Part shown: positions 11,238 to 54,823 of the stretch, piece by piece
Numbering within the stretch: position 1 is the stretch's first letter
Layout: every line of letters starts with the position of its first letter
Source: an uncultured Siphonobacter sp.
GTDB lineage: Bacteria > Bacteroidota > Bacteroidia > Cytophagales > Spirosomataceae
Length of the DNA stretch: 64,000 nt
Direction: 5' to 3'
NCBI GenBank assembly: GCA_913775095.1
Contig: CAJYIW010000020.1
Span: 1-64,000, forward strand
Program-made: the position numbers and the translations under genes
The notes under the pieces: model-generated
The model's database searches: none
Seen by the model: only the letters and a program-made list of their open reading frames with translations
What the model was told of the DNA's origin: nothing

Positions 11238-11822
11238 TCATCTTCTGGCTACTTCATAGCTAGAAGATGAATGATTTTCTTTAAAACTCCGCTGCCTTCG
11301 TTTTCCTTTTTTCACTGAGTTGCCTGATTGCCACTTGTCCTTGCAGTCCCAGGTATTAAGCCTACTAGTCATTCCATGCGGGGCATTCCATGCCGGGCAT
11401 CCCATGCCGGGCATCCCATGCCGGGCCTCACTTGGAGTAGTGGATAGAGCTCATTCGATGACTAAAGGCAGTTTCAAACTGCTTTTACATCATTCGATCC
11501 AAGTGGCGTCTTTCAGACGAACACTTGGATCAGTTGCAGTGCTCCCAGGTCTGTCCTCTCAAACGCAGGCAGGGATTTATCTGATGTGAAGACGAGCTTT
11601 TGACGTACGGTCCTCTTCTGGTTATGCTACCAGCGGAAAAGCTGGTAGCGGCTGGGCCGAGTTATCTCTATTCGCTTCGCTCTGGATGACCTTGGTAAGG
11701 AAATTAACAGGATAGTAGCATACCCTCTGTATCGGTAAATTAGTCTGGGTTGCTGGTACTATCTACCCGGTACTTTATCTATTTTCGCAAAGCCTTTTAC
11801 TAACCCGTTAACCTTCATTCAA
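11238..11822. repeat. Hairpin-rich noncoding zone with 14-bp tandem repeats
   Basis: This stretch holds no convincing gene. It contains four tandem 14-bp units at 11370-11425 (last two both CATCCCATGCCGGG), a GCAGTTT/AAACTGC hairpin (about 11469-11483), a nested hairpin at 11496-11531 and another at 11626-11649 (GCTACCAGC/GCTGGTAGC). The density of near-perfect hairpins suggests a dispersed intergenic repeat or a folded RNA rather than simple spacer. Confidence 0.6.
11496..11531. repeat. Nested perfect hairpin
   Basis: Outer arms GATCCAAGTG (11496-11505) and CACTTGGATC (11522-11531) are perfectly complementary. Inside them CGTCT and AGACG form a second stem around TTC. No T-tract follows, so a simple terminator is unlikely. 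Confidence 0.7.
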
Positions 11823-48325: not shown

Positions 48326-48341
48326 GTGAGTTTTGGACTAA
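48326..48341 (+). other. Outlying iteron-like copy
   Basis: GTGAGTTTTGGACTAA differs from the main iteron sequence by one base. It lies in the pirin/quinoprotein gap, about 6 kb from the main array and about 2.6 kb beyond the rep stop, in the same orientation. Confidence 0.65.
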
Positions 48342-50938: not shown

Positions 50939-50954
50939 GTGAGGTTTGGACTAG
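50939..50954 (+). other. Outlying iteron copy at the 3' end of rep
   Basis: GTGAGGTTTGGACTAG matches the main iterons in all but the last base. It sits 5 bp beyond the rep stop codon, in the same orientation as the main array. Confidence 0.75.
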
Positions 50955-50959
50955 AATAC

Positions 50960-51946
50960 TTAAGCTTTTTTACGGGTAGTTGCCGATTTTTGAGCTTTGA
51001 AGCCCAGGACTGTGGCCATGTACTGCGTTTTTGAAGTTTTAACCGTGATTTTTCCGTTTTCGATTTCAGCATTTACCTGTACGAATTTTTCCAGTTTTTC
51101 CTTCGACAGTAAGATTTCTTCAATTTGCTGAGCCGAAAAGGTGTATTGCGTTTCCAACAGGTTCCGGGCGACCAGGTATCGATTGGTGTCGGTGGTGCTG
51201 TAAAAGCTTTCCATTTCTTCTTCCACTGCATCGTTTACTACGTCCATGAAGGACTTAATCGTAAACTCCAGTTCCAGAATTTTTTTTCGTTCTTTCTTAC
51301 TGGGGGCGTACTCAAAAACAATGTTGGCTTTGGCAAATAATTCTGCCTGAGCCACTTTCAGAGCCCAGCGTTGAATTTCCTTGTAGTTGTAACTCTCCGG
51401 GCAATTGAGCATGAATTTCAATTTCTCAACGGAATAGGTAAATACCCGCTGCCCACGATTATAATACATCATCATCAGCTCATAGAGTCGTTGGGAATAC
51501 ACCGATTCCAGCGATAGCATGACATCAATGCTGTACTTAGTATATCGGCTACCTAACTCAATAAACTGAGGAACAACGTTCGCTAACATGGTAATTTCCA
51601 GGAAATTACGTCCGTCTTCATTCACGGTACGAACCAGAGGAAAGGGAACCAGCGAAGCAAAGCTGGGATTCCGGGGATTGGAAAAGTCCTCGTAAAGAAT
51701 CTTTTTATCCGTCAGGGATTTGGCGGCCAGATACAGCTTACGGTAATTATTGGATTTGGCCAGTTCAGTAATGGGAATGGTAAAACGCAGGTTTTGACCT
51801 TCCTGGTAATCCTTTACATTCCGAATCTGATTGATGATCATGACCACAATTCGCTTCTCCAGTTCAGAAAACTGTTGTTTCGATTCGGTGATGAAATTAG
51901 GCTGAAAATTGTTAAGTCTTTTCTGAAAAACAATTGAATTATCCAT
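50960..51946 (-). CDS. Replication initiator protein (Rep_3/RepB superfamily)
   Basis: 328 residues: FITESKQQFSELEKRIVVMIINQIRNVK at the start of the first winged-helix domain, LESVYSQRLYELMMMYYNRGQ in the middle, and a second winged helix with YSVEKLKFMLNCPESYNYKEIQRWALKVAQAEL (about 170-215). This is the initiator family that binds iterons as monomers and represses its own gene as a dimer (known for RepE, pi and RepA of pSC101). Iteron copies upstream of parA and an inverted half-iteron pair just before its ATG fit that model. It defines the window as a plasmid-type replicon. Confidence 0.93.
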   Translation of the reverse strand: MDNSIVFQKRLNNFQPNFITESKQQFSELEKRIVVMIINQIRNVKDYQEGQNLRFTIPITELAKSNNYRKLYLAAKSLTDKKILYEDFSNPRNPSFASLVPFPLVRTVNEDGRNFLEITMLANVVPQFIELGSRYTKYSIDVMLSLESVYSQRLYELMMMYYNRGQRVFTYSVEKLKFMLNCPESYNYKEIQRWALKVAQAELFAKANIVFEYAPSKKERKKILELEFTIKSFMDVVNDAVEEEMESFYSTTDTNRYLVARNLLETQYTFSAQQIEEILLSKEKLEKFVQVNAEIENGKITVKTSKTQYMATVLGFKAQKSATTRKKA

Positions 51947-51977: not shown

Positions 51978-52016
51978 AATAAAAGTGAGATTCCTTTTCA
52001 TTTTCTCACTTTTATT
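51978..52016. promoter_or_regulatory. Inverted half-iteron operator before rep
   Basis: AATAAAAGTGAGA (51978-51990) and TCTCACTTTTATT (52004-52016) are perfect 13-bp complements across 13 bp. The left arm continues as AAAAGTGAGATTC, identical to the first 13 bases around the iteron at 54605. It is 31-70 bp upstream of the rep ATG, where a Rep dimer would shut off rep. Confidence 0.75.
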
Positions 52017-52095: not shown

Positions 52096-52254
52096 TAATG
52101 TGGTAACTGTTACCACGTTTTTTCAAAGTCCTGAGCAGATGGTCTGTTTAGGAGTTGTTTTTAGTAATGTGGTAACTTCTGCCACATTAATTTGTTTGGT
52201 CAAGGTTAAGGATAGCTGGAAAAGGGAGCGTAGTAATGTGGTAACAATTACTAC
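52096..52254 (+). other. Candidate centromere (parS): three 69-bp-phased 12-mers
   Basis: TAATGTGGTAAC occurs at 52096, 52165 and 52234, each exactly 69 bp apart, between parB and rep. Each copy is continued by a dyad-like partner: GTGGTAAC-T-GTTACCAC (perfect, 52100-52116), TAATGTGG/CCACATTA (52165-52172 and 52182-52189), and GTGGTAACAATTACTAC (52238-52254). Repeated dyads beside parAB are the usual form of plasmid partition sites. ParB binding is inferred. Confidence 0.6.
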
Positions 52255-52268
52255 GCTCCCTTTTCCAG
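52216..52268 (-). terminator. 22-bp-arm perfect hairpin at the 3' end of parB
   Basis: Arms 52216-52237 and 52247-52268 are perfectly complementary (core GGGAGCGTAG/CTACGCTCCC), with a 9-nt loop GTGGTAACA that holds the third centromere-like motif. The right arm covers the parB stop codon, so it probably ends the parAB transcript while presenting the motif. Confidence 0.65.
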
Positions 52269-53105
52269 TAGCGTTTGGGCAACCTCAATAATTTCTTTGC
52301 ATAGTTCGGGGCTGTTACCCCCGGCTCGTTCCAACTGATCAACTAGTGTTTTCAGCCGATCGACCTCCGTCAGAACCGATTTCCTGGTTTTCCCTGACTT
52401 CGTCAGTACCTGATTGATTTCTTCAACGCTTTCAAAGGCTGGAAGGCCCTCTGACGCATGAGCAAGCTCTACAATCGATTTTTTTGAAACTTTCGATTTA
52501 CGACTCAGAATTTCTTTTTTAAGGGCTGGAGAGGTCTTATCGAGGCCTTTCGCAAATTCGGCGTCCGTACGAATGGTTTTCGGACTAACGTTGAATTGTT
52601 CCGCCAGGACCTCTTCCGTTCGTTTACCACCGCTGCTTCCTGTGGGACGCCCGGAACCTTTTTTCATTGATAAATACTTCTGTCCACGCAGGTAGGAAGT
52701 TTGTTCCGGCGTTAGATTGCGGCGGCCTAACTGGTTATCAATCATAAAGGCCCTTACCTCCTCAATGGAAGCAAATTCCTTCATCAAAATCCGATAAGGA
52801 ATGCCATGACTGGTGCAGATCTGGTAACGGTTGTGGCCATCAATCAATACGAACAGTGAAGTCGTGTCGTCCGTATTCCGAACCGTATGAGCCGCCGTTT
52901 CCCAAACGAGCAGGGGTTCCCGGCAACCTTCCCGGATCAGGTTGGTCTCCAGTTGCTTAAATTCATCGTCGAGCAGGGGCGGAATGAGCGATTCGAGTTC
53001 AGGAATGATGGTGAGCTGATTTTTGATCAATTCCTGCTGCACCAGCGAACCACTATCTTTCTTGATCAGCTCTTTCGTACCAAACTGGTTGACAATTTTT
53101 TTCAT
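52251..53105 (-). CDS. parB: ParB-like partition protein
   Basis: 284 residues: a ParB/sulfiredoxin-fold N-terminal domain with IPPLLDDEFKQLETNLIREGCREPLLVW and LIDGHNRYQICTSHGIPYRI, where HNRY stands in place of the usual GERRY-type nucleotide-binding motif; a helix-turn-helix (TEEVLAEQFNVSPKTIRTDAEFAKGLD, about 160-190); and a coiled, Leu-rich C-terminal part (about 240-284) for dimerisation. It would bind the phased repeats downstream and work with ParA. It begins 25 bp after parA on the same strand. Confidence 0.88.
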   Translation of the reverse strand: MKKIVNQFGTKELIKKDSGSLVQQELIKNQLTIIPELESLIPPLLDDEFKQLETNLIREGCREPLLVWETAAHTVRNTDDTTSLFVLIDGHNRYQICTSHGIPYRILMKEFASIEEVRAFMIDNQLGRRNLTPEQTSYLRGQKYLSMKKGSGRPTGSSGGKRTEEVLAEQFNVSPKTIRTDAEFAKGLDKTSPALKKEILSRKSKVSKKSIVELAHASEGLPAFESVEEINQVLTKSGKTRKSVLTEVDRLKTLVDQLERAGGNSPELCKEIIEVAQTLLEKGA

Positions 53106-53130: not shown

Positions 53131-54084
53131 TTATCGGTTCTGGCGGGTCAGCAGTTCCTGAGCCAGCTGTTTGTAATCAATGGCTCCGGGAGAGGTAGCT
53201 CCATAACGAAAGATATCAACCTGAGCGTACTGAGACTCTTTCAGGGCTGCGTTCAGCCGAATTTCGGTGTTGAATACCTGAAAATCCTTTAAATCTTTGC
53301 GTATGGTCTGAATGAGTTCCTTGTGCAGAACGAGGCGTCGGTCTACGCGGGTGAATAACAACCCTTCAATACTCAGGTGTTCGTTGAAAAACTGCCGGAT
53401 TTCGTTGATGAGTTCGAACAGGTTATTGATGCCTTTGATAGCAGAGGTTTCGGGTTCCAGTACCACCAGGGCAGAATTGGAGGCGATCAGGGCAGAATTA
53501 GTAAAAACGTTTAGGGCGGGAGGGCAATCGATCAGGATGTAATCATACTGCCCCACAACGGTCTGCAGAGCCGTTCGCAGCCGCAAAGCACCACTAGGGG
53601 AGTGGGTGAGCTCGCGTTCGTATTTAGCCAGTTCCAGGTTACTGGGAATCAGGTCCAGATTAGGAATGACTGAAACAATCGGAAGCGGCTTGTTATGCAG
53701 CAGGGCTTCGTACAATTGTGATTCCGGATTATCCAGTCCCAGACTCTGGGAGAGATTTCCCTGGGAGTCAATATCAATGACGAGAACTTTAAACCCTTCC
53801 ATCACCAGAGCACTGCCCAGGTTAATGGTCGTCGTTGTTTTACCCACTCCACCTTTGTGATTGACGATGCTAATCACACGGGCTTTCCGGTTTCTGAACT
53901 CTTCCAGACCATACTGAAGCAAAATGGGTTCAAGGGCTTTGAGATGTTTTTGATTCAGGGTTCGCTGACCCGCCAGTGCCTTAGGCAGGGTGCTAAGGGG
54001 AAGACCAGATTCTTTCTCAATAACGGACATGGAAAGAGCCGTCTTCTTTTTGAAAAAGTGCAGAACCTCTTCGTGAGTGAGCAT
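53131..54084 (-). CDS. parA: ParA-family partition ATPase
   Basis: 317 residues: a short N-terminal helix-turn-helix region (about 5-55, SVIEKESGLPLSTLPKALAGQ), then the Walker-type ATPase with deviant P-loop NHKGGVGKTTT (about 74-84), A' motif VIDIDSQGN and B motif LIDCPPAL. The DNA-binding extension is that of type Ia plasmid ParA proteins, which also repress their own operon. It drives replicon segregation over the nucleoid and heads the parA-parB unit upstream of rep. Confidence 0.94.
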   Translation of the reverse strand: MLTHEEVLHFFKKKTALSMSVIEKESGLPLSTLPKALAGQRTLNQKHLKALEPILLQYGLEEFRNRKARVISIVNHKGGVGKTTTTINLGSALVMEGFKVLVIDIDSQGNLSQSLGLDNPESQLYEALLHNKPLPIVSVIPNLDLIPSNLELAKYERELTHSPSGALRLRTALQTVVGQYDYILIDCPPALNVFTNSALIASNSALVVLEPETSAIKGINNLFELINEIRQFFNEHLSIEGLLFTRVDRRLVLHKELIQTIRKDLKDFQVFNTEIRLNAALKESQYAQVDIFRYGATSPGAIDYKQLAQELLTRQNR

Positions 54085-54361
54085 GTACGAACTGTTTTGT
54101 CAATTTTAAAAGACAATACTAAGGATATTTTCCTGAAGGCGTCTGCATTCTTTGACATTTTTTGACAAGACGAGGGTATTGCATTGAAACTAAAATATTA
54201 GTTCACGGTGTGTTTGTTTTTTTGCTACAACGAAAATGGTATGACCTTTGCTTTCAATGAAAAAAAACATCAGTCTTTGATTATTATTTTATTTATCAAT
54301 ATTTTGATTGATTTAGAAGGTCTGTAACTCACTGATAAACAATGATTTAAGGGTATGAAAA
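54085..54361. other. parA upstream region, AT-rich
   Basis: This 277-bp stretch between parA and the iterons holds the parA promoter by position and an AT-rich run (about 54255-54315) that could be the DNA-unwinding element. No exact TTATNCACA DnaA box is seen by eye. Confidence 0.4.
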
Positions 54362-54823
54362 GTGAGGTTTGGACTAAGGTAAGGTGAGGTTTGGAATAAA
54401 TTAAGAATTCATAAGGTGAGCTTTGGAATAAGCCAAAAGTGAGGTTCAGACTAAACAGAAACCGACAAAAGTGAGCTTCGGACTAAGCGAAAGGTGAGGT
54501 TCAGACTAAGCAAAAGTTGAGAAAATAGGGTGCTGATAATGAGCAAACAAGCCCGAAACCATTCGGTCAGCCCCGGTAAAAGTGAGGTTTGGAATACAGG
54601 AAAAGTGAGATTCGGACTAAAAACGTAAGGGGTTTCAAAACCAAACATCTTCTCAAATTTTGTCCGGATTCTAGCGATAAGGTGAGCTTTGGACTAAGCT
54701 AAGGGGTAAAAAAATGTCATTATGCAGACGTAATCCCGAATGCTTCCAGCGAACCAGGGCAAACGCCCGGAACGGAGCCTAAGATTCCAGAAAACACGTT
54801 TTGAAAAGTGAGGTTTAGACTAA
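54362..54823 (+). other. Replication origin iteron array (10 copies)
   Basis: Ten same-strand 16-mers, consensus GTGAG(G/C/A)TT(T/C)(G/A)GA(C/A)TAA, start at 54362, 54384, 54416, 54439, 54471, 54494, 54582, 54605, 54682 and 54808. Nearly all are preceded by AAAA or AAG. The first six form three pairs: 22-23 bp within pairs and 32 bp between pairs, so about two and three helical turns. A further 23-bp pair is at 54582/54605. A degenerate copy is near 54512. Rep binding here would open the origin. Confidence 0.9.

Follow-up and report, generated by a model that had tools for sequence, protein, structure and literature searches.

The ten direct iterons upstream of parA in a Siphonobacter genome probably serve as oriV, the origin from which a secondary replicon of low copy number replicates under its own Rep_3 initiator, as judged from an inverted pair of half-iterons upstream of rep, iteron sequences that track Rep, the TTTGATTGATTTAG element beside the array, and nearby minima of GC skew. 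The iterons closest to this element are arranged pair-gap-pair, in steps of two, three, and two helical turns, approximately 35–44 bp from the putative unwinding sequence. This layout appears to define a class of origins common to a large set of Rep_3 replicons in the Spirosomataceae, where it has been kept while the initiators and the letters that they recognize have diverged. On balance, we favor the reading that the layout is the selected core of this class and that the initiators assemble as spaced couples instead of an even row. To our knowledge, most of what is known about iteron initiator assembly comes from a small number of Proteobacterial plasmids whose sites are evenly spaced. An origin class that conserves spacing and an unwinding element, and not the binding letters, would separate geometry from sequence, and the layout could serve as a recognition rule for locating origins and building vectors in this bacterial group, which has few genetic tools.

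Replicon Setting

The window, the whole 64,000-bp stretch of DNA analyzed here, comprises bases 1–64000 of contig C20 (78,890 bp) of a 5.65-Mb genome assembled in 27 contigs, in which seven Rep_3 matches are found. Three genes follow one another on the minus strand: parA (53131–54084; 317 aa; AAA_31 match, 2.5e-52), a parB-like gene (52251–53105; 284 aa), and rep (50960–51946; 328 aa). The array is positioned upstream of parA, 2.4 kb from rep, and is inverted relative to rep. The cumulative GC skew of the contig has its minimum at 50.5 kb, 4 kb from the array. Similarly, on a 463-kb contig of the Siphonobacter relative G002, the minimum is at 92 kb and the interval from rep to the array is at 95.4–99.5 kb (a distance of 7 kb). 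The skew amplitude of each contig was reached by none of 1000 window shuffles. No tRNA genes were found on contig C20 or on the 463-kb stretch of G002, which agrees, if weakly, better with a large plasmid than with a chromosome.

Two other tandem arrays are present in the window. Positions 1–146, at the start of the contig, contain approximately 21 copies of the heptamer CAAAACT. Nine further contigs of the genome have this heptamer too, in several cases at their ends, so that it is a dispersed repeat and a probable cause of breaks in the assembly. The second, at 11370–11426, is composed of 4.1 copies of a 14-bp unit, CATCCCATGCCGGG.

Architecture of the Iteron Array

A repeat finder and a pattern search allowing up to three mismatches returned the same ten plus-strand copies of the iteron, starting at 54362, 54384, 54416, 54439, 54471, 54494, 54582, 54605, 54682, and 54808, with start-to-start steps of 22, 32, 23, 32, 23, 88, 23, 77, and 126 bp. 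The iteron core is AAAAGTGAGGTTTGGACTAAG, and AAnGTGAGnTTnnGAnTA is unchanged across all ten copies. The pattern matches 12 times in the 64 kb compared with 0.51 times expected (100 shuffles, largest value 3), such that same-strand direct repeats occur near rep far above chance, as in an iteron-type theta replicon. The 22/32/23/32/23 series departs from the single spacing of ~22 bp that characterizes a classic evenly spaced origin.

The first six copies form three plus-strand pairs. Pair 1 (54362–54399) has starts at 54362 and 54384, a 22-bp step that is the same in all four Siphonobacter copies. Pair 2 (54416–54454; starts at 54416 and 54439) and pair 3 (54471–54509; starts at 54471 and 54494) each have a 23-bp step and follow the preceding pair at 32 bp. 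In the distal part, a fourth plus-strand pair (54582–54620; starts at 54582 and 54605), which is not kept in G002 and G004, is followed by single plus-strand iterons at 54682–54697 and, 126 bp further, at 54808–54823; the 126-bp step is found in all four relatives.

The two additional matches are lone plus-strand iterons with one mismatch each. One (50939–50954) is located just past the rep stop codon and is also present in G005; the other (48326–48341) lies between a pirin gene and a PQQ-dehydrogenase gene, and G005 has a copy at a comparable distance. In G002 (locus L039, 7405–7420) and G004 (locus L040, 8530–8545), an iteron is found within the last rep codons, in the orientation opposite to the array. 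The first-pass annotation of this DNA had described ten same-strand copies, the first six spaced 22/32/23/32/23, and a further pair at 54582/54605 with a 23-bp step, all of which both searches reproduce; its ten array copies stand, and its inventory lacked the two lone copies at 48326 and 50939 as well as the inverted half-copy pair upstream of rep described below.

The Rep Initiator and Its Probable Operator

Rep matches PF01051 at 2.5e-17 and PF21205 at 8.3e-14, with 64 bits for Rep3_N (WH1; cut-off 22.4) and 52 bits for Rep3_C (WH2; cut-off 21.1), and it matches RepE structures by profile at 5.7e-11. The protein is a member of the known Pfam Rep3_N plus Rep3_C family, related to RepE, and is not a new kind of initiator.

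A probable rep operator is located at 51978–52016, where AATAAAAGTGAGA and TCTCACTTTTATT flank 13 bp and contain inverted half-iterons, AAAAGTGAG, at 51981–51989 (plus strand) and 52005–52013 (minus strand). All four Siphonobacter copies conserve this dyad, which is upstream of rep, 31 bp from its start. Reps of the RepE-like kind repress their own gene from such half-sites, and repression is predicted here as well. In 10 of the 50 Rep clusters of the family survey described below, half or more of the iterons share a 7-mer with an inverted repeat close to the start of rep, compared with a mean of 0.2 and a maximum of one cluster in 20 shuffles of those upstream stretches, which in some loci can contain iterons proper. 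In 32 of the 50, no upstream inverted repeat shares any iteron 7-mer. Across 45 clusters, moreover, iteron consensus sequences are more alike where the Reps are more identical (Mantel r 0.65, a value reached in 0 of 999 permutations). Taken together, the half-iteron dyad, this correlation, and the observation that iterons do not track ParB (see below) point to Rep as the binder of the array. The earlier proposal of iterons bound by Rep is very probable, although the initiator family, for which a little-studied one had been considered at first pass, is known and RepE-related.

Spacing among Siphonobacter Relatives

Iteron copies in the relatives were called at up to four mismatches. Read in the iteron direction, the steps are 22, 32, 23, 32, 23, 55, 32, 23, 77, and 126 bp in G005 and 22, 32, 23, 32, 23, 88, and 126 bp in both G002 and G004. 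Comparison of these series shows that the three pairs proximal to the AT-rich element are fixed and that the distal part is variable. G002 and G004 are near-copies, and the four genomes thus amount to approximately three lineages. The alignment of the six-iteron block has no gap columns; gaps occupy 17 columns in 255 bp of the upstream flanking block and 130 of 346 columns downstream. With the G002–G004 pair left out, 84% of iteron cells (506/600) and 34% of spacer cells (55/160) are identical. A conserved protein site in the 32-bp gaps was rejected because they hold no conserved letters at this level of identity. The pair spacing, 22/32/23/32/23 in all four Siphonobacter copies, is conserved; free variation between close relatives, which the first-pass annotation had named as evidence against its idea, is absent from the six proximal sites and is seen among the distal ones.

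Alternatively, the pairing might merely reflect past duplication of a 55-bp segment carrying two iterons, with a spacing that has no function. A 55-bp unit is detectable, in that 54413–54467 and 54468–54522 are 80% alike. This origin of the pattern is nonetheless unlikely, because spacers that have lost most of their sequence identity between relatives retain their exact lengths, and because Rep clusters with as little as 23% identity have the same 22/32/22 start built from other iteron sequences. Shared descent would explain part of this recurrence, but not the retention of length after the loss of sequence.

Spacing across the Spirosomataceae

A Rep match at 1e-30 is present in 48 of 150 genomes of the family. 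The 93 Rep loci were grouped into 50 clusters at 80% identity, and 45 clusters were used; L060, L125, L128, L131, and L145 were dropped before counting (very long, off-strand, or missing arrays), and three of these would have fitted the layout (L060, 22/33/22/22/30; L128, 21/32/22; and L146, the mate of L145, 22/32/21). The 198 spacings within dense runs fall into discrete classes, with 130 at 19–24 bp, 63 at 28–35 bp, four at 40–46 bp, one at 56 bp, and none at 25–27 or 36–39 bp.

In the tree, 33 clusters form one group with support of 93/94, just under the 95/80 mark of the tool. The group contains all 31 clusters that have the TTTGATTGATTTAG element at up to two mismatches and two that fall outside this limit, L062, in which the 14-mer has three mismatches, and L130, which has an apparent one-base deletion. 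Its Reps share a median identity of 31.6% (minimum 22.6%). Step 1 is 21–22 bp in 33 of the 33, step 2 is 31–33 bp in 32, and step 3 is 21–23 bp in 31, with the first hit of L170 set aside and L024 counted as a miss at step 3. Scored as a whole pattern, with L170, whose first hit was considered spurious, and L024, in which two steps together span 45 bp, taken as fitting, the layout is found in 30 of the 31 clusters with the element versus 2 of the other 14, a Fisher comparison that ignores shared descent. L020 has the element, yet breaks the pair-gap-pair order. Patterns outside the group of 33 include 22/22/34/22, 22/33/33, even steps of 21, and 21/21/33/22/22/21.

The near constancy of steps 1–3 across such divergent Reps indicates that the pair-gap-pair start is an old layout that has been retained. 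In the window, it continues into three strict pairs, for which L127 (22/33/22/33) and L130 (22/32/22/32) provide close counterparts; on these comparisons, the strict alternation of three pairs is a special case of a more general two-turn/three-turn rule. In the comparison of spacing among Rep_3 origins that was suggested at first pass, 31 to 33 of 33 divergent clusters are thus pair-gap-pair at the element-proximal end. Other arrangements were also observed in the family. L160 and L162 have a second, wide-spaced iteron set upstream of the dense run, with steps of 74–77 and 99 bp in L160 and alternating steps of 98 and 75 bp in L162. On the L060 contig, from a Persicitalea MAG, 39 iteron-like copies, most of them ~42 bp apart, come after a normal 22/33/22/22/30 start.

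Rep_3 Origins outside the Family

Two origins from another family of the order, neither of which was placed on the tree, lack the 14-mer and yet have a pair-gap-pair start: 22/32/22/32 in L222 and 21/32/21/22 in L223. Further examples were drawn from 19 named plasmids. Main-run steps of 20–24 bp are observed in five of five Bacillota and four of six Gammaproteobacteria plasmids; the E. coli plasmid L238, in which the only repeats were 36 bp in size and a long way downstream of rep, was excluded from the iteron controls. A Thiothrix plasmid has 33/21/21/55, and two Salinibacter arrays and one from Hymenobacter include steps of 32–33 bp. One Parabacteroides array has a 30-bp step and another a 44-bp step, Persicobacter has 20/41/31, and Segatella and Bacteroides have three copies at 21 bp. 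Mixed steps are therefore not unique to the Spirosomataceae, given the three-turn steps in Salinibacter, Hymenobacter, and Thiothrix. A survey for PF01051 across the Bacteroidota gave matches in 7 of 198 genomes, too few for a rate.

The AT-Rich Element

AT content is 0.84 in the 50–100 bp on the 5′ side of the array. A probable DNA unwinding element, for which melting is predicted, occupies approximately 54256–54320 (plus strand) beside the array, and its conserved end, TTTGATTGATTTAG (54303–54316, plus strand), is 41 bp from iteron 1. This exact 14-mer occurs once in the 5.65-Mb genome. The element is partly conserved in the four relatives, being present with small changes in G005, G002, and G004.

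With up to two mismatches, TTTGATTGATTTAG is found in 31 of 45 Rep clusters, a descriptive count since the 14-mer was derived from the same 45 flanks, and 29 of the 31 copies are 35–44 bp 5′ of iteron 1. The corresponding values are 0.75% for shuffled flanks and 0 of 45 for the opposite flank. In most clusters, the AT-rich flank ends in TTTGATTGATTTAG and is followed, in the iteron orientation, by a TGTAAC...TGAT...CAAT-like stretch. The window has the element on this same side of the iterons despite the inversion of its array relative to rep. Base content alone places the AT maximum 50–110 bp upstream in 20 of 45 clusters, too weak a result for an independent test. Blocks resembling GTAACT...TGAT...CAAT lie between the AT-rich element and iteron 1 in the window (54324–54343) and at 1298–1317 of L222; the latter origin, from another family of the order, thus seems to share this second block though it is without the 14-mer.

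Among 30 other Rep_3 loci (25 outside the family and five divergent ones within it), one, from a Priestia plasmid (L236), contains TTTGATTGATTTAG, at up to two mismatches, within 150 bp on the 5′ side of its array. The sequence in question, TTTTATTGTTTTAG at L236 946–959, differs from the 14-mer at two positions and is located 39 bp 5′ of evenly spaced iterons. It may be there by chance, or the element may be older than the family; its occurrence beside an even array indicates that the element and the pair layout can part. In an order-wide scan, exact TTTGATTGATTTAG was found at 61 places in 47 of 291 genomes, compared with 12 for a reversed control pattern. At 30 of these places, all outside the family, there is no Rep match and the array scores are 16–36, no better than the 26–36 of shuffled sequence; a chromosomal use of TTTGATTGATTTAG was rejected on these grounds.

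The DnaA box TTATNCACA, whose consensus in this host is uncertain, has no match in the 64-kb window and a single one-mismatch site, at 54720, in the region 53.9–55.2 kb. A DnaA requirement is optional and host-dependent, according to the accessible part of a review (PMC4980987). In L042, L043, L044, and L161, four origins outside the pair-gap-pair group, the flanks contain DnaA-box sequences of the TGTGGATAA type close to iteron 1; such sequences are absent from the window origin.

The array could also be viewed as a site of copy control (incompatibility) at which Rep is titrated or handcuffed, with the true origin elsewhere, since two or more additional iterons are found beyond the dense run in 26 of the 33 clusters and the distal copies vary between relatives. 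We consider this highly improbable: a conserved AT-rich element stands at a fixed distance from the dense run, GC-skew minima fall within ~8 kb of it, and the tandem-repeat scan of the window contained no second iteron-like array.

Partition Genes and the Candidate Centromere

Beyond the clear ParA, the parB-like product has no Pfam match and a sub-threshold match to TIGR00180. Three candidate parS sites are located near its gene: a AATGTGGTAAnnnTTACCACATT-type site at 52097–52119, a palindrome between parB and rep at 52166–52188, and a third at 52235–52257 that overlaps the parB 3′ end. All four relatives have three or four copies of the palindrome GTGGTAAnnnTTACCAC (up to two mismatches) between parB and rep. 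Outside the genus, it lies beside three of the four ParB homologues that are at least 55% identical (L176, L189, and L195) and is absent from L201 (ParB 57% identical) and from the remaining 22 of the 26 scanned ParB loci, which are more distant. It is absent from all 22 Rep loci outside the genus, and within the genus its exact form occurs at this locus only, in four of six genomes. The palindrome thus tracks close ParB homologues, not Rep loci, and is locus-restricted in its exact form; GTGGTAAnnnTTACCAC is likely the parS of this ParB, distinct from the iterons. In addition, a TTGTC-10 bp-GACAA dyad at 54097–54116, upstream of parA and conserved in the four-relative alignment, is a possible ParA operator.

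The position of the repeats, next to parA on its upstream side and 2.4 kb away from rep, would suit a partition centromere bound by ParB in place of an origin. That the array has this role is extremely unlikely, and it was rejected as a centromere: the separate palindrome between parB and rep accompanies three of the four closest ParBs outside the genus, and the iterons follow Rep. No iteron with up to three mismatches was found at any of the 26 ParB loci outside the genus, with 1.5 kb scanned on each side.

Helical Phase and a Model for Initiation

The six proximal sites are in helical phase at a best-fit repeat of 10.95 bp per turn (R 0.965) and are poorly phased at 10.5 bp (R 0.41); to call them in phase therefore presumes underwound or bent DNA. 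In the available portion of PMC5043065, plasmid iterons are described as generally in helix phase, and disturbed phase as able to inactivate an origin.

In the proposed mechanism, Rep dimers would repress rep through the inverted half-iterons upstream of the gene, and Rep monomers would bind the direct iterons, two roles that draw support from the comparisons above. The active replicator would consist of the three element-proximal pairs. In each of them, two monomers approximately two helix turns apart could be in contact, and the 32-bp step, by adding one turn, would separate the couples while holding them on approximately the same face of the DNA. Filled couples may then bend the DNA and open the AT-rich element that ends in TTTGATTGATTTAG, 41 bp away, where the helicase would be loaded. 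Distal and lone iterons might bind spare Rep and help to keep the copy number down.

Comparison with Known Systems

The even 22–23 bp iteron spacing of F, R6K, and RK2 is the standard against which the window can be compared. Similar to RepE/F-type replicons, the window has a two-domain Rep_3 initiator, direct iterons, an AT-rich element beside the array, and inverted half-iterons upstream of rep. The main differences are that two-turn and three-turn steps alternate in the window in place of even 22–23 bp steps, that the order is array, parA, parB, and rep, and that no exact DnaA box is found in the window. There is also a likeness to Rep_3 plasmids of Spirosoma, Larkinella, Persicitalea, and Rudanella (L020–L024 and L059–L071), which have Reps 34–45% identical to that of the window and, in 7 of 13 clusters, iterons with a GAGGTTT core. 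They share the AT-rich element with the window, and most of them have the same 22/33/22 start. In these plasmids, however, the fourth step is 22 bp rather than 32 bp, the array is directly upstream of rep in the same orientation, and there is no such palindromic parS nearby.

The evenly spaced origins of Bacillota and Gammaproteobacteria (L206, L209, L211, L212, L233, L235, L236, L237, and L239) likewise have direct iterons upstream of a Rep_3 gene, but their main-run steps are 20–24 bp, with wider steps only at or near the ends or beyond. RctB, of V. cholerae chromosome II, belongs to a different initiator family from Rep_3. The origin of V. cholerae chromosome II, as presented in the accessible part of PMC6090056, resembles the window in combining dense replicator sites with spare regulatory sites on a secondary replicon, and differs in that its 12-mers are regular at 10–11 bp. 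The part of PMC10645730 that was available covers Rep_3 plasmids of the Persicobacteraceae and does not describe spacing.

No account of the pair-gap-pair layout or of the 14-mer was found in the open literature, subscription journals being mostly outside the scope of the search. Phased iterons are known; as far as the open literature searched extends, the conserved pair-gap-pair layout would be an undescribed variant of them. From sequence comparison, the layout is real and well conserved, and it is best filed under the known iteron replicons.
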